Shown here: positions 533 through 6,586 of the stretch, piece after piece
How positions within the stretch are numbered: position 1 is the stretch's first letter
Layout: each line of letters opens with the position of its first letter
DNA from: Limisphaerales bacterium
GTDB taxonomy: Bacteria; Verrucomicrobiota; Verrucomicrobiia; Limisphaerales; UBA11358
NCBI GenBank assembly: GCA_003133815.1
Contig: PKZR01000270.1
Span: 2,569-35,072 of the forward strand
Direction: 5' to 3'
DNA length: 32,504 bases
The notes under the pieces: model-generated
Databases searched by the model: none
Told to the model about the DNA's origin: nothing
The model's input: only the letters and a program-made list of their open reading frames with translations
Program-made: the position numbers and the translations under genes

Positions 533-1030
533 CTAGCTTTTACGTGAGCAAAGTTTCTCCAATTCAGTTGTCCATTTTCGGCAGAACCAAAGCGGAATAA
601 AACCAAATATGCCAAATGAACAATCTATCAGTCGCCACCAAATCGGGATTCCGCGCAGACCGCCGAACACAAACGCATACGGCATCACCAGAACACAGGC
701 GATCAAACCGAAGTCAAAAAGCCAGCGGTTGCGGACTGGGTCGCGCAATGCACCGATGAAGACAATCGCGATGACAAAATGCCCGAACGCCAGCCAGTCC
801 GTGCCGTAGAAAAGAAACGAATGTTCCGCCTGCGTCTGCGCCAGCGCATCGCGAATCCGCAAAAACCAGCGCGCCATTTCGGATGATCCGCCATTTGACC
901 CGGAAAATTTCACTAGCAGATTCAATTCGCCTTGCAGCGGAATCGCCGTCACACCGCTGATAAACAAGCCTATGATGAACAGCCATGTCAGCAGTTTGAT
1001 CCGATGTCGCAAGCTTTGTTCACGCTTCAT
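533..1030 (-). CDS. uncharacterised small membrane protein
   Basis: A 165-residue protein with a basic N-terminus (MKREQSLRHRIK) followed by about four hydrophobic segments near residues 12-32, 78-95, 105-122 and 130-150. A polar stretch with FSGSNGGSS lies between the first two. It ends in a charged tail. I do not recognise a named family or any catalytic motif. It lies 43 bp downstream of another membrane protein gene and 35 bp upstream of the sigma-factor gene, all in one direction, so co-transcription is plausible. The coding call rests on the clear membrane topology in this frame, the close spacing with neighbours, and the lack of a competing credible ORF. No Shine-Dalgarno site is evident. 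A role in sensing for the adjacent sigma factor would be speculation. Confidence 0.75.
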   Translation of the reverse strand: MKREQSLRHRIKLLTWLFIIGLFISGVTAIPLQGELNLLVKFSGSNGGSSEMARWFLRIRDALAQTQAEHSFLFYGTDWLAFGHFVIAIVFIGALRDPVRNRWLFDFGLIACVLVMPYAFVFGGLRGIPIWWRLIDCSFGIFGFIPLWFCRKWTTELEKLCSRKS

Positions 1031-1073
1031 GTGCGAATTATTCTAGGCTTGGTTTTTCAAATTTTGCACGGTT

Positions 1074-1847
1074 CTATTCACGCGATTTCAATTTTGTTTC
1101 GCTGTCATGCAAATTCAAACAATCACCCCAGTGCGCGAGAAAGAATTTTTTCTCCGTCGGGAAAAACGTGTCCGCCGTCCCGAGAATCGGCCTCAGCGCC
1201 GTCGTCATCTGTACCGCGACGAGCAGAAAAATGACGACCCATGTGTGGAAACCCGCGTGCGACCGGGCGTTCGATTGCGAAAATCCGGCCTCCAAAAATC
1301 GCAGTCCGAAAATTGTCGCGATAAACCAGAAAATCAGATGCAGCGCGCCCATCCACGCGAGCGATTCCGTGGATTGCGAAAAAATCCACGCGACCGGCGC
1401 GAAGCCGATGAGCAGCATCGTCGTCAACATCAGCATCCCGGCGAGCAATCCAAAAATTTCGGAGAGCCGTGCGTGCGAACCGCTCAAACATGTGAAAATG
1501 TAAAGGCTAGGAAGACAGATGAGCGCGGATATCATCAGGCCTGCGGCGATTTTTACGGGCGCGATCCATAGCTGCTGCCCGCCGGAAAATGTTCCGACAA
1601 CCACTCCATAAATTAGGCTGCACACGATTGAAATGAACAGCATCGCCGCAATCAATTTTCCCGCGCCCGGCTGCCGCAGTTGAAACATCATCCGTCGCGG
1701 ATGACGCAGAAGGGCTTCAATCACGGCGATGATGTTCGGAATCGCGACGCGCTCCAGCGGGTCGTCGCCAAGCTGGCGCACGCCACTTGAAAGAATCGAC
1801 GGAATTACCGGCGGGATTTGCGGTGGGACTGGATTTTGTTCGTTCAT
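1074..1847 (-). CDS. multi-pass membrane protein, paralogue of the next gene upstream (Yip1-like topology)
   Basis: A 257-residue protein with a proline-rich cytosolic N-terminus of about 60 residues (NEQNPVPPQIPPVIPSI) and then about six membrane segments. The layout resembles Yip1-type bacterial membrane proteins, although I see no diagnostic signature. Landmarks are IYGVVVGTFSGGQQ near residue 90 and ALRPILGTADTFF near 225. The neighbour encoded at 1866-2588 shows matching landmarks at matching places (LYGAAMG plus QQ, and ILRPFIGSPD plus FF), so the two look like old tandem duplicates. The gap between them is 18 bp. Function is unknown. The start is the ATG at 1847; the long polar leader is retained because no better internal start is seen. 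Confidence 0.8.
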   Translation of the reverse strand: MNEQNPVPPQIPPVIPSILSSGVRQLGDDPLERVAIPNIIAVIEALLRHPRRMMFQLRQPGAGKLIAAMLFISIVCSLIYGVVVGTFSGGQQLWIAPVKIAAGLMISALICLPSLYIFTCLSGSHARLSEIFGLLAGMLMLTTMLLIGFAPVAWIFSQSTESLAWMGALHLIFWFIATIFGLRFLEAGFSQSNARSHAGFHTWVVIFLLVAVQMTTALRPILGTADTFFPTEKKFFLAHWGDCLNLHDSETKLKSRE

Positions 1848-1865
1848 AGGTCAATGAGTTTTGGT

Positions 1866-2588
1866 TTAGTTGTTGAAAATTTGTTGAAGCGATTGAAAGA
1901 CATTTTCATAAAAATTTCCTTGTAGCGCGGACGCGCGGAAAAATTCCACCGGAAGGTCAGGCGAACCGATGAATGGCCGCAGAATCCACGAAAGCTGGCT
2001 GCCCAGAAATAAATTTCCCGCCAGCCACGCAAACAGGACGCGAAGCGCAACCGCCCTGCTTCCGCCGAGCCGCGCGAGCAGTTGAAACAGCCGGACATTT
2101 CCAGTCATACCTGCGAACGCAATGACAACGACGTTGATGAGTTTGATAAGATTGTAAGTTGAGCCGGAAATGGTTTGCGGCGAAATCGGCGGCGCGTTCC
2201 AAATCATAAAAGCGAGCAGCGGGCTGAACGCGCCCAGAATCGCCGCCGCAATGGTGAAGCTCATCACGATCGCGGAGAACGACTGGCGGAACGGGATGTT
2301 TAGGCCGAGCAGCGGTGCGAACATGGCATTAATGAGCGAGTTGCCGATGGTCGTCAATAAAATGATGAGCGGAAATTTGATCGCGACATAAAGCGCCTGC
2401 TGCGGATCGCGCCACCAACCCATCGCCGCGCCGTAAAGTCCCGCGCCAAAAATGATGACGGTGACGTGCAGCAGAAATCTGCGCGCGTTCCAGGATTCGC
2501 TCCACATGGAAATCGTTCCCGTTTCACCGCGCAGGAGCGTGGCTATTTCAGCCGGATGGGTCTTTAATTTTGCGGATGGTGCGGGCAT
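1866..2588 (-). CDS. multi-pass membrane protein, paralogue of the next gene downstream
   Basis: A 240-residue protein with a soluble N-terminal stretch of about 35 residues and about six hydrophobic segments. It contains LYGAAMGWWRDPQQ near residue 50 and WILRPFIGSP near residue 205, both echoed in the downstream gene product. A segment rich in small residues (FTIAAAILGAFSPLLAF) sits mid-protein. Its ATG shares one base with the stop codon of the gene upstream (TAATG), an arrangement typical of translational coupling. The family is not one I can name and no enzyme motif is visible. It belongs to the same minus-strand run as ispH. Confidence 0.8.
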   Translation of the reverse strand: MPAPSAKLKTHPAEIATLLRGETGTISMWSESWNARRFLLHVTVIIFGAGLYGAAMGWWRDPQQALYVAIKFPLIILLTTIGNSLINAMFAPLLGLNIPFRQSFSAIVMSFTIAAAILGAFSPLLAFMIWNAPPISPQTISGSTYNLIKLINVVVIAFAGMTGNVRLFQLLARLGGSRAVALRVLFAWLAGNLFLGSQLSWILRPFIGSPDLPVEFFRASALQGNFYENVFQSLQQIFNN

Positions 2589-3304
2589 TAAAATTCTGCA
2601 GATTGTTTGGTGATTTCAGATTTTACGCGAGATCGCAGCAAAAATTCCCGTCCGATTTGCAGCACCGGCGCGGACATCAACGCCAATGCCGCGCAAAACA
2701 GCGGCCAGTTAAATCGGGCGGGCAGCATGGACCGAATCGCATCCAAATTGTGATGCGCGGCGGCAATGGAATCCGCCATGAAAACATAAAGCGCAAGCGC
2801 GACGCCGGTGAAATTTAATATCCACGCCCGCCAGCTTGACAGCATCGGGGTGTGTTTCCGTTCAAACTGGCAGGCGAACGTGCCCCATAAAATCAACAGC
2901 AGCGAAATCAAACCCGGTGCGAGCACCGGCCCCCACCACGGCAACGGCAGCAAAAATAGAACGTCCCAATCCAGCAACGAGTGCGGCCAGCCGCAAATGA
3001 TTTTCAGAAAGACATAATAAAAAACATCCCACACGCCAAACGCAATGACGGCGTAGCCGATTCGCGCCCGCCACGTCCGTCCCGCGAGAAAACCTACGGC
3101 AAACAGCATGACCAGCGTGGCCAGCTCGCGCGGCAGTTCCACCGAGGCAAATCCGCCGATGATGGGCAGCGGATCGGGTTGATATGGTTCGATGCGGTCA
3201 ATCATCGAGCGCAGATAAAACACCACCGCCGATTCCACCCATGCCATGGCGGCGGCGTAGATCACGACCATCCACCAGCGATGCCATTTAGATTTGAGTT
3301 TCAT
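2588..3304 (-). CDS. uncharacterised multi-pass membrane protein
   Basis: A 238-residue protein with about six membrane segments. Conserved-looking polar residues lie inside or beside membrane spans: AWVESAVVFYLRSM near residue 21 and ELPRELATLVMLFAVGF near 56. A tryptophan- and proline-rich loop (LLPLPWWGPVLAPG) lies near 122. Acidic and arginine residues within hydrophobic segments suggest a functional pocket, but I cannot assign one. The start overlaps the upstream stop by four bases (ATGA), and the stop overlaps the next start by one base, so it is in the middle of a translationally coupled chain. I recognise it only as a conserved hypothetical type. Confidence 0.8.
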   Translation of the reverse strand: MKLKSKWHRWWMVVIYAAAMAWVESAVVFYLRSMIDRIEPYQPDPLPIIGGFASVELPRELATLVMLFAVGFLAGRTWRARIGYAVIAFGVWDVFYYVFLKIICGWPHSLLDWDVLFLLPLPWWGPVLAPGLISLLLILWGTFACQFERKHTPMLSSWRAWILNFTGVALALYVFMADSIAAAHHNLDAIRSMLPARFNWPLFCAALALMSAPVLQIGREFLLRSRVKSEITKQSAEF

Positions 3305-4218
3305 GTTTTTTGTTTGGTGGAGCTTTCAGTTTTACCTGCCGTTACGTTGATGAGCTTTGCCATGAGTTCCACGGGCTTGATGGCGAGGTAAGTGAAATCC
3401 GCCAGCCACGCCGACTTGATCTGGGTGGCGATCACCGGGCCAAGGCGGTTGTAGCCGCAGCGGAATATCCGGTGGCTGCGCGGCGCGCGATTTCGCCACA
3501 GATTTTCTAACTGCCAGAACGTGAGGAGCTGTTGATTTGCCATCCGCCTGCGACCTTTGTGTTCAATTTCAAAATGCGGGCCGACAATTTTCGCATGGCC
3601 GCGACCTGCCGCCGTGACTATGAAACAATCGGATGGGGGCTTGTCCGGCAGCGACGCATACAGGCTGCGCGACCACAGCCAGCTCACCAGCCAGAACGGC
3701 AGGGAACCAACCAGCGAAATGAAATTTGGCCAGAAGCTGAAACGGGAGGCCTTGATCAGTTGCGCGGCGCGAATCGAATACCATGCCGCAACATAAAATG
3801 GCACCAGCAGCCATAATTTGGGGACGTCTGCCTCGGATCCGAGGCACACCATGCCAAACAAGAAACAAATTGTGGCAACGATTGCTCCCAGAAAAAATCC
3901 GACGACAATCCAACGCGAGGTGCGATTTTCGACACGAAGGATTTCCAGCGCATACAAGGCTGCTGTCGCCAGCAGCACCAGCGGTGTCAGCGCCAGCTTC
4001 CCTGCGATAAAGCAGTCCAGCCAGCCGTAAGCGCACGCGCCCTTCCATTCCGGCTCCATGAAAGAACTCAATAAAAAAACGACCAATGGCACCACGACTC
4101 CTACAAACGACAGGATCAACGCGATGAACAAGCGGCGCCACGATTTTTCTTTCAACACCGGCGGCAAGGCCAGCGCTGATAAAATTCCGATGAGGAGAAT
4201 CCAAGGTGCAAGAATCAT
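3301..4218 (-). CDS. membrane protein with CFI-box-like C-terminal domain
   Basis: A 305-residue protein. About five hydrophobic segments fill residues 1-190. A soluble tail follows that begins CFIVTAAGRGHAKIVG near residue 198. That start, a later QLLTFWQLENLWRN, and a closing pattern like GYNRLGPVIATQIKS resemble the CFI-box C-terminal domain (CFIATAAYGS, then L..FRD..L, then YY..SP..A). The domain's function is not established. Here the box is variant: GRGH replaces the usual YGS. The gene overlaps the stop of ispH by four bases (ATGA) and also overlaps the next gene by four bases. The membrane layout is clear; the CFI-box relation is my recognition of a pattern and needs a profile search. 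Confidence 0.8.
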   Translation of the reverse strand: MILAPWILLIGILSALALPPVLKEKSWRRLFIALILSFVGVVVPLVVFLLSSFMEPEWKGACAYGWLDCFIAGKLALTPLVLLATAALYALEILRVENRTSRWIVVGFFLGAIVATICFLFGMVCLGSEADVPKLWLLVPFYVAAWYSIRAAQLIKASRFSFWPNFISLVGSLPFWLVSWLWSRSLYASLPDKPPSDCFIVTAAGRGHAKIVGPHFEIEHKGRRRMANQQLLTFWQLENLWRNRAPRSHRIFRCGYNRLGPVIATQIKSAWLADFTYLAIKPVELMAKLINVTAGKTESSTKQKT

Positions 4219-5084
4219 GCGAGAATTTGTTCAGGTCGCATCAAAGGCTTGTTTTGCAGGTTATTCAACCATTCGTTGACTTTTTGAATGACTTCGTCCG
4301 GCGTCGAAGTTCCCGCCGTTATGCCGACAACGTCATCGTCGCAAAACCATTCCACGCGTAGATCGTCCGCCATCTGGACGTGATGAACGCGCTGACAAAA
4401 TTGCGAACAGGTTTGCACCAATTCATGCGTGTTGTTGCTGTGCGCGCCACCAATGACAACCACCACATCGCACTTTTGCGCCAGTTCGACCGCTGCGCTT
4501 TGACGCTGCTTAGTCGGCTGGCAGACGGTGTCAATGAAGCACACCTCCGATTTCGGATAGCCCTCGCGGATCAATTGCACCAGCCGTCTGACTTTTTCAA
4601 TGGGTTGCGTGGTTTGTGAAATAATTCCAAAGCGCGAACGCTCCTGAAGTTTTGAAATATCTTCCTCGACCAGCACCACATCGAACTCAGCCAAATCTTC
4701 CGTCATGCCACGAACTTCAACATGATCGCGCTTGCCGATCACAACCGGGTGAAAACCTTCCTCCACAAGCTTCTTCAAACTGCGATGCGCAACGTGAACA
4801 AGTGGACACGTAGCCTCCAGCACGTTCAATCCGCGCCGACGCGTTTCTTTCAAAACGCGTTCGGACGCGCCGTGCGCCGTGACCATCACCGTTTGCGTTC
4901 CGACATTGGCAGATTGCCGCTCAAAGCGAATTCCCTTCGCACGCAATTCCGCCAGCACGGCTTCGTTGTGGACCAAATCGCCCAGAACCGTAAGCGGCTC
5001 GCGTTCCACCGACTCCAAAGCCAGGGCAATGGCATCCTTTACCCCAAAACACATTCCCAGATGTTCGGCGCGTATGATTTTCAT
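4215..5084 (-). CDS. ispH: 4-hydroxy-3-methylbut-2-enyl diphosphate reductase
   Basis: This is the last enzyme of the MEP pathway. It reductively dehydroxylates HMBPP to isopentenyl and dimethylallyl diphosphate using a [4Fe-4S] cluster in the cytosol. The three cluster cysteines are visible: GMCFGV (Cys12), EATCPLV (Cys93) and DTVCQPT (about 195). The substrate-binding residues His39 (GDLVHNE) and His71 (AHGAS) are also present, as is the GGAHSNNTHEL segment and the closing AGTSTPDEVI. At 289 residues it is slightly short for the family but complete. It heads a minus-strand run of membrane-protein genes, with a four-base overlap to the next. A perfect palindrome lies only four bases before the ATG, so transcription is probably repressible there; no Shine-Dalgarno site is visible in that space. 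Confidence 0.97.
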   Translation of the reverse strand: MKIIRAEHLGMCFGVKDAIALALESVEREPLTVLGDLVHNEAVLAELRAKGIRFERQSANVGTQTVMVTAHGASERVLKETRRRGLNVLEATCPLVHVAHRSLKKLVEEGFHPVVIGKRDHVEVRGMTEDLAEFDVVLVEEDISKLQERSRFGIISQTTQPIEKVRRLVQLIREGYPKSEVCFIDTVCQPTKQRQSAAVELAQKCDVVVVIGGAHSNNTHELVQTCSQFCQRVHHVQMADDLRVEWFCDDDVVGITAGTSTPDEVIQKVNEWLNNLQNKPLMRPEQILA

Positions 5085-5088
5085 ATTA

Positions 5089-5105
5089 ACTTTGTATCAC
5101 AAAGT
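5089..5105. promoter_or_regulatory. palindromic operator candidate upstream of ispH
   Basis: ACTTTGT-ATC-ACAAAGT is a perfect 7-bp inverted repeat around a 3-base centre, ending four bases before the ispH ATG. A near-identical palindrome, CTTTGC-GTT-GCAAAG, sits just before the membrane-protein/winged-helix regulator pair at 6083-6097. Repetition before two nearby transcription units suggests one regulator binds both, most simply the winged-helix protein encoded between them. Binding is inference. Confidence 0.55.
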
Positions 5106-5140
5106 AAAAGACCGCAGGCTTCCATTTCCGTTCAAAATAA

Positions 5141-5449
5141 TTATTTGGGTCTGTTCTGCCGGACTATTTTTTCCAGCAGGTTGATGTATTCAGCAAAGGC
5201 TTTGCGGCCCGGAGCCGTGAGCGAGCAGGTTGTGAGCGGGCGGTTGTTTTGGAATGATTTTGCGACGGCGATGTAACCCTCCTGCTGCAATGCTTTTATA
5301 TGCGTTGTGAGATTGCCGTCGGTCATTTCAAGCGCGTCGCGCAGCTCGGTAAACGACAGTTCCGGCGTGGCCGCGAGCATGGACATGATCGCCAGCCGGC
5401 CCTTTTCGTGGATCACACGGTCGATCTGTAAAAATGGTTCCGGGTTCAC
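5141..5449 (-). CDS. winged-helix transcriptional regulator (ArsR/MarR-like, HTH_34 type)
   Basis: A 102-residue protein starting at GTG 5449 with VNPEPFLQIDRVIHEKGRLA. The ORF-track start at 5533 lies inside the upstream gene and is rejected. The GTG overlaps the upstream TGA as GTGA, indicating coupled translation. The body is a classic winged helix: helices at IHEKGRLAIMSML and SFTELRDALEMTDGNLTTHIKALQQ (recognition helix), then the wing EGYIAVAKSFQNNRPLTTC and the helix TAPGRKAFAEYI. No metal or ligand cysteine pattern is evident. Single-domain proteins of this kind paired with a small membrane protein are common, and such pairs are usually autoregulated. Palindromes before this operon and before ispH are candidate binding sites. 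Confidence 0.9.
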   Translation of the reverse strand: MNPEPFLQIDRVIHEKGRLAIMSMLAATPELSFTELRDALEMTDGNLTTHIKALQQEGYIAVAKSFQNNRPLTTCSLTAPGRKAFAEYINLLEKIVRQNRPK

Positions 5450-6075
5450 GCGACGGGATTTTTCTTCTCGGTCAGATACAAATACGCGCCGTAAGCAAGA
5501 TGCAGCACACCGAAGAAAAAGCCCATGAGCCACTGTGAGTTTATCTCAATCTTCGGTTGGACAACCGCCAAGAAAAAAAGGAAAGCGCAAGCAAAGCCAA
5601 TAAAAATCCACCCAATCCATTTCATGCCGCGTGGCATGAAAAATCCAGCTGCGTGCAATGCGCATCCATAAAAGAGCAGCCAGACCAATGTCAACAGCAG
5701 GTTGAATCCGCCACCAGCGTCGCCGCTCATGAGATACACGACCACCAAGCTAACGCACATTCCCGAAGTCAATGGCGGCAATAAGGCCTGCGCCACGCGC
5801 CGGGTCGGAGGCGACCAGAAGCTTTCGTTGTCTTTCAACGCCTGTCGTCGGGCAATGAAAAATGCGCCTGCGATTACAAAAATGGACGCGCTGAGCCAAA
5901 GGACACCAAACTCCCGTGTCGAATCTAGATGAAAGATCAAACCCAGCGTGGCGGCAATGACGCCCAAAACTCCTGCAAATAGCATTATCGGTGCGAGCGC
6001 ACGGCGATAAAGCGCGGAGCGTTCCATTAAGGTGCGGATGGTTTGCAGGTTTTCTTCGGCCCAGTTCGGATGCAT
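5446..6075 (-). CDS. membrane protein partner of winged-helix regulator
   Basis: A 209-residue protein from the ATG at 6075 (MHPNWAEENLQTIRTLMERS). The ORF-track start at 6159 would add 28 unlikely residues and place the palindrome at 6083-6097 within coding sequence. The motif LQTIRTLMERSALYRRALAP precedes six membrane segments in three hairpins: about residues 28-48 and 54-73, 95-140 (two), and 150-195 (two). I recall the same N-terminal motif in other bacterial membrane proteins encoded beside winged-helix regulators, but their role is not established. The stop overlaps the regulator's GTG by four bases. A membrane partner that responds to stress and works with the regulator is conceivable but not shown. 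Confidence 0.85.
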   Translation of the reverse strand: MHPNWAEENLQTIRTLMERSALYRRALAPIMLFAGVLGVIAATLGLIFHLDSTREFGVLWLSASIFVIAGAFFIARRQALKDNESFWSPPTRRVAQALLPPLTSGMCVSLVVVYLMSGDAGGGFNLLLTLVWLLFYGCALHAAGFFMPRGMKWIGWIFIGFACAFLFFLAVVQPKIEINSQWLMGFFFGVLHLAYGAYLYLTEKKNPVA

Positions 6076-6082
6076 GAGTTCA

Positions 6083-6097
6083 CTTTGCGTTGCAAAG
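6083..6097. promoter_or_regulatory. palindromic operator candidate upstream of membrane protein/regulator pair
   Basis: CTTTGC-GTT-GCAAAG is a perfect 6-bp inverted repeat with a 3-base centre, ending seven bases before the chosen ATG at 6075. It matches the ispH-proximal palindrome in half-site sequence, spacing and position relative to the start codon. This fits an autoregulatory site for the coupled winged-helix regulator, and also supports the downstream start choice. Confidence 0.5.
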
Positions 6098-6205
6098 CAG
6101 GCATTGACAAGCACAAAATCTGCTTGAAGAAACTGAAAAATCTGCATGGAATAAAGCAAATTATATTCTTCATGCCATGGTGTCTTTATGGTTATTTATT
6201 TGCAG

Positions 6206-6586
6206 ATGCCGCCGCCGAAAAAAGTTTCCGCCCGCCAAAAAGTTCTCGCACAATGGCGTGGCGTGGACCTTGCGCCGATTGAGACAGCCAAGGCAATCCG
6301 TGCACGCGACGCAGGCAAAGTCGTCGCAAAAGTCCTGTCAGACTTGAAAATGGATTCACGCCGCGCCGATATTGAAATTGTGAAAGTCTGGAATGAGTTG
6401 CTAGACCCGAACATCACCGCACACGCGCAGCCGCACAATCTGCACAAGGGAACTTTGTTTGTGAACGTGGACAGCAGCTCGTGGCTATCGGAAATCGTCC
6501 GTTACCGCCGCAAGGAAATCCTGGATCGCCTCCAGCACAGCTTCGGGAAAAACCTCATCCAGAAAATCTCCTTCCGCGTCGGCTGA
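6206..6586 (+). CDS. DUF721 / DciA-like protein
   Basis: A 126-residue protein from ATG 6206 (MPPPKKVSARQKVLAQWRG). The track start at 6188 adds six residues that do not fit the basic N-terminus. The core has the DUF721 pattern: KVWNELLDPNITAHAQPHNLHKGTLFVNVDSSSWLSEIVRYRRKEILDRL, here quoted only as landmarks VWNELLD, GTLFVNVDSSSW and EIL. This family includes DciA, which helps load the replicative helicase DnaB in bacteria lacking DnaC/DnaI-type loaders. The size fits. It is divergent from the membrane-protein/regulator operon across about 130 bp. Assignment to the family is firm; the loader role in this organism is inferred from the family. Confidence 0.85.
   Translation: MPPPKKVSARQKVLAQWRGVDLAPIETAKAIRARDAGKVVAKVLSDLKMDSRRADIEIVKVWNELLDPNITAHAQPHNLHKGTLFVNVDSSSWLSEIVRYRRKEILDRLQHSFGKNLIQKISFRVG

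Follow-up and report, generated by a model that had tools for sequence, protein, structure and literature searches.

Judging from the sequence evidence, two palindromes found in the 32,504-nucleotide stretch of DNA analysed here (the window) are very probably the operator pair of a PF13601 winged-helix regulator that is encoded between them. The window belongs to a draft genome with Limisphaerales/Pedosphaera (Verrucomicrobia subdivision 3) as its closest named relatives. Read along the minus strand, site A is followed by a membrane-protein gene, the regulator gene, site B, ispH and five further open reading frames. Operator A (6083..6097, minus strand, CTTTGC-AAC-GCAAAG-TGAACTC-ATG) is located 7 nt before the ATG of the membrane-protein gene at 6075. 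Operator B (5089..5105, minus strand, ACTTTGT-GAT-ACAAAGT-TAAT-ATG) is found 4 nt before the ispH ATG at 5084 and coincides with the predicted ispH transcript start. Both were present where a previous sequence-only reading had placed them, and on the plus strand they read CTTTGC-GTT-GCAAAG and ACTTTGT-ATC-ACAAAGT, respectively. The complete explanation, in which the palindromes would be PF13601 operators repressing the regulator's own operon and that of an accessory ispH, with the membrane protein involved in signalling, is considered highly likely. The predicted operator identity, the proposed binder and the two putative promoter architectures are strongly supported, and repression rather than activation is likely, as read from the geometry only.

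The half-site is shared by both palindromes, as the sequence-only reading had it, but the 3-base centre described there proved to be part of a degenerate YRNYR core, resulting in the operator consensus (A)CTTTG-YRNYR-CAAAG(T). The same reading had proposed a whole-genome scan for the motif. When this was carried out on the 3.6-Mb genome, exact matches to CTTTGYNNNRCAAAG were found at these two positions only, and the reversed-pattern control for CTTTGYNNNRCAAAG gave 0 matches. For the extended 17-mer with up to 2 mismatches, 40 matches were obtained versus 58 in the control, showing that near matches are not in excess and that no wider set of sites is hidden in the 82%-complete assembly. A genome-wide regulon in the window's genome was rejected on this basis.

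A chance origin of the palindromes was rejected, the pair being conserved in 130-odd related genomes. A set of 135 orthologous regulator loci was collected in Limisphaerales. Site A, within one mismatch of CTTTG-N5-CAAAG, was present in 125 of the 129 loci in which the membrane-protein start could be placed, and its distance to the ATG was 7 or 8 nt in 112 of those 125. Site B was found, again within one mismatch, in 123/135 Limisphaerales loci. From base composition, about 0.003 matches are expected per 120-nt window, which amounts to less than one match over all such windows. The conservation extends to the same class outside the order, where exact matches were seen in 43 (site A) and 38 (site B) of 48 loci with regulators 43-75% identical. 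Four membrane-protein homologues without an adjoining regulator had no site; a fifth without an adjoining regulator, cut by the contig end, had site A. As exceptions, site B was missing despite the presence of regulator and ispH in G159 and L171, and site A was lost in G052 and G084. At seven loci, extra small open reading frames, several of them membrane-protein-like, were observed between site B and ispH, and there the palindrome was kept before the first of the extra frames. A divergent DciA-family gene (window 6188-6586) lies upstream of site A and occupies the same place in many genus members.

The regulator gene (5141..5464, minus strand) encodes a protein of 107 aa; its GTG start, inside this stretch, overlaps the membrane-protein stop by GTGA. 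The match to PF13601 (HTH_34) was 1.4e-27, with 96.1 bits against a cut-off of 27. A far weaker match was obtained for MarR (PF01047; 29.1 bits, cut-off 24.6), and ArsR HTH_5 was matched too. The AlphaFold model (pLDDT 92) displayed a winged-helix fold, with 1ub9 as the best PDB match.

In order to relate protein and operator, 96 regulator residues were scanned for covariation with changes at operator positions 5/11. The strongest associations were those of 54V and 53S, and 53C, 54I and 55Q ranked among those that followed; all five belong to the recognition helix (model residues 49-61). With V, I or M as residue 54, the operator was changed in 12/27 loci; with T, S or A, in 0/156. Replacement of H55 by Q, seen in three loci of one family, coincided in 3/3 with changes in both operators (G to A and/or C to T), and both were changed in 0/180 loci with H55. 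The p-values overstate the case since related genomes are not independent; nonetheless, the operator and helix changes fall in several families. This association is the strongest sequence-only evidence that the regulator would read both sites.

The sites also follow the presence of the regulator. Within the genus, a mean of 2.29 pattern matches per genome was found with the regulator (n = 28) and 0.38 without it (n = 21). Most single extra sites matching the bare pattern were discarded, as they fall within reading frames and resemble background. No site was detected within about 2 kb of 13 paralogous HTH_34 loci from the same order (35-44% identical). In five genomes (G144, G059, G091, G084 and G161) the short ispH is unlinked from the regulator, and the palindrome was found before ispH every time; in G160 the palindrome is near ispH, with more than 200 nt separating it from the regulator. 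The unlinked ispH of G161 is preceded by a tandem pair of palindromes at a distance of 62 nt from each other. The sequence-only reading had named the winged-helix protein as the simplest candidate binder. The tracking of presence and absence, the sites travelling with unlinked targets and the covariation of residues 53-55 with the operator all point to this protein as the binder of both palindromes.

The two sites are embedded in different promoters. At site A, a -35 element TTGTCA (6105..6110, minus strand) and a -10 element CAAAGT (6082..6087, minus strand) can be read, the latter made up of operator A's right half and one further, conserved T. In 117/122 loci the TTG precedes the site by 12 or 13 nt, and the CAAAGT was found in 108/122 site-A loci, with a spacer of 17 nt in the window and 16-17 nt across loci. 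The 17-nt spacer would put the transcript start on the A of the ATG (6075), which predicts a leaderless transcript. For the membrane-protein gene, and for it alone, the promoter layout backs the idea of leaderless genes raised earlier. The membrane protein itself (5446..6075, minus strand) has 209 aa and 6 predicted helices, and its model likewise showed six helices (pLDDT 91). Searches of Pfam, NCBIfam and PDB were all without match, and the attempt to derive its function from the fold was abandoned after the PDB comparison. It is probably the natural sensor or antagonist of the regulator.

ECF-sigma promoters have a TGAAAC-N16-CGTC-like sequence, as described for SigM/SigW of Bacillus. In front of site B, a -35-like TTGAAC (5130..5135, minus strand) is followed 16 nt later by a -10-like GGTC (5110..5113, minus strand). 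The pattern TTGAAC (up to one mismatch)-N15..18-GTC was detected in 85/122 site-B loci and 0/122 site-A loci, with 0.4 expected in shuffles, and the TTGAAC to GTC spacing was 17 in 79 of the 85. The layout AAC-N16-GTC is common to promoter B and ECF-sigma promoters, so that the putative ispH promoter resembles the ECF-sigma type, an assignment by resemblance only.

A composite of GTC, 4 nt and the site was searched as a pattern in 195 genomes, matching 87 of them, with 1 match for the reversed control. Leaving aside ispH, bchE and the regulator, ten composite matches remained, and TTGAAC was found upstream in 10/10. Behind these ten are recurring membrane-protein genes as well as genes for CreD, a radical-SAM protein and an Ldi-like protein whose match does not reach the Pfam cut-off. 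Among the proteins behind composite sites, a family weakly resembling linalool dehydratase/isomerase was observed at three loci (the one tested being below the Pfam cut-off), and two unnamed membrane-protein families were observed at three and two loci, in different families. An orphan bchE was found in 7/195 genomes, all in Limisphaerales, with the palindrome upstream in 7/7 and a TTGAAC...GTC-like element readable before most of them. The one member tested exceeded the BchE NCBIfam cut-off. Phototrophy was rejected as the reason for bchE, a photosynthetic reaction-centre gene being absent from all seven genomes.

A mechanism can be proposed in which a regulator dimer would read (A)CTTTG-YRNYR-CAAAG(T) via the recognition-helix residues 53-55. 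Bound to site A, the dimer would lie over both the -10 and the spacer of a sigma-70-type promoter, from which transcription may begin at the ATG, and its own membrane-protein/regulator operon should therefore be blocked by negative autoregulation. At site B, the dimer would sit over the predicted start of the ECF-sigma-like promoter, and the accessory ispH operon should be blocked. The signal by which the regulator would be released or sequestered is probably conveyed by the membrane protein encoded with it. As in autoregulated local repressors, both the promoter of the regulator and that of the target were found to contain a conserved operator.

The sign of control cannot be read directly from sequence, and site A lies within the promoter spacer. 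The regulator could hence be an activator or a dual regulator of both sites, for example with site A used in a MerR-like spacer mode. MerR-type activation typically uses a stretched spacer, however, and here the spacer is normal (16-17 nt) and site B is at the predicted start, which makes activation rather unlikely. Alternatively, both sites could be bound by an unlinked transcription factor, the winged-helix gene being merely one of its targets. The sites at unlinked genes would suit such a factor, as would G093, where the palindrome is present and the regulator was not found in an 82%-complete assembly. On the other hand, sites are scarce where the winged-helix regulator is missing, and G130 has a short ispH with neither regulator nor site; moreover, the operator changes associate with residues 53-55 of the winged-helix protein itself. 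An unlinked factor is consequently very unlikely.

The remaining alternatives concern the palindromes themselves. Stems of 7 bp with 3-nt loops near start codons could form RNA hairpins, masking the ribosome-binding region or, as site B is found 40-60 nt past the regulator gene in most genomes, terminating transcription between this gene and ispH. Pairing was not maintained, though: inner Watson-Crick pairs were found in 51/119 (A) and 54/120 (B) cases (p 0.14 and 0.10), with no pairing covariation, and the unpairable C..A and A..C were common at inner positions. Site A is also upstream of the predicted transcript start, and site B is found before unlinked ispH and bchE as well. There was no Rfam match in the window. 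A hairpin function is thus judged highly improbable. The least probable reading of all, close to negligible, takes the palindromes for core promoter elements instead of operators. In its favour, the -10-like CAAAGT is supplied by the right half of site A, and in L161 and L163 this element and the -35 were both kept after loss of the left half-site. Nevertheless, the left half is equally conserved, for which a promoter has no need, and at site B the same sequence is found downstream of a different promoter element.

The target ispH (4215..5084, minus strand) encodes a short-type protein of 289 aa, an accessory paralogue in which cluster and active-site residues are present. It scored 246.6 bits with TIGR00216 (cut-off 187.85). 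The three cluster cysteines and the active-site His, Glu, Thr, Ser and Asn of IspH (HMBPP reductase) were invariant in 113/113 short IspH proteins of Limisphaerales. A second IspH in the genome is of the long type (415 aa) and has no operator; in other genomes, the long-type ispH examined lacked the operator as well. Genus members without the regulator do not have an intact short type. The notion that they lack IspH altogether turned out to be wrong, as nearly all have the long type. With the long IspH free of the operator and the short type under it, the operator would control the accessory isozyme. The earlier proposal of a link to IspH holds in this form, but the wider claim of control of isoprenoid synthesis is not established. 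Behind ispH, five further open reading frames (533..4218, minus strand; 4218-3301, 3304-2588, 2588-1866, 1847-1074 and 1030-533) are possibly co-transcribed with it. The first matches DUF6688_C, and a DUF6688-like gene was found behind ispH only in some relatives.

In one family, an IspH-like protein is encoded behind site B at six loci; most of its active-site residues are gone, as are all or most of its cluster cysteines. In one genus (four loci), site B is followed by a gene of about 100 aa, and the product of one of these (L374) matches the C-terminal part of IspH/LytB only. An IspH-type protein is hence kept under the operator in much of the class despite cysteine loss or reduction to a C-terminal remnant of about 100 residues. 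This hints that the IspH-family protein could be a working part of the regulatory system and not only a metabolic target, a tentative idea that is on balance doubtful. If true, the short IspH fold would sense a signal, be it an isoprenoid precursor or the Fe-S or redox state, or pass it on to the membrane partner. BchE is an Fe-S enzyme as well, of the radical-SAM type. Given this and the oxygen sensitivity of IspH (PMC8837944), the signal of the circuit could plausibly be redox state or iron. Mycobacterium tuberculosis also holds two IspH homologues, LytB1 and LytB2, only one of which suffices for viability (PMC8837944). The window genome differs in combining a short and a long type with the short one under a dedicated operator, and the sections of that account dealing with LytB1/LytB2 describe nothing comparable (PMC8837944).

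Among known structures, 1ub9 (PH1061 of Pyrococcus horikoshii) shares the PF13601 family and the predicted fold with the regulator (TM-score 0.84/0.90). Its description goes no further than a homologue of transcriptional regulators, and the paralogous HTH_34 proteins of the same order are without such operators. After 1ub9, the best structural matches included the winged-helix fold of the MarR/OhrR-type complexes OhrR-DNA (1z9c) and MftR-DNA (8ylg). The predicted circuit is similar to those of autoregulated MarR/OhrR-type repressors in having a palindromic operator in the own promoter and at a neighbouring target gene. Unlike these, the window regulator is short (about 107 aa), has one Cys, has a gene that overlaps with the one for a polytopic membrane protein, and has IspH-family targets.

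No published description of the palindrome/regulator/ispH circuit was found in the open-access literature; as far as this literature shows, it is new as a regulon, and it is ordinary in kind. With it, a PF13601 subgroup for which the open-access search yielded no paper gains a predicted operator, a target set and specificity residues, in a bacterial group whose gene regulation is little known. The signal can also be approached through the other genes that have this operator in front: the orphan bchE, a further radical-SAM gene and a small number of membrane-protein genes. Throughout an entire class of Verrucomicrobia the pair of sites is found again, and the occurrence of two IspH types, with dedicated control on the short one only, raises the question of which condition calls for a second IspH.
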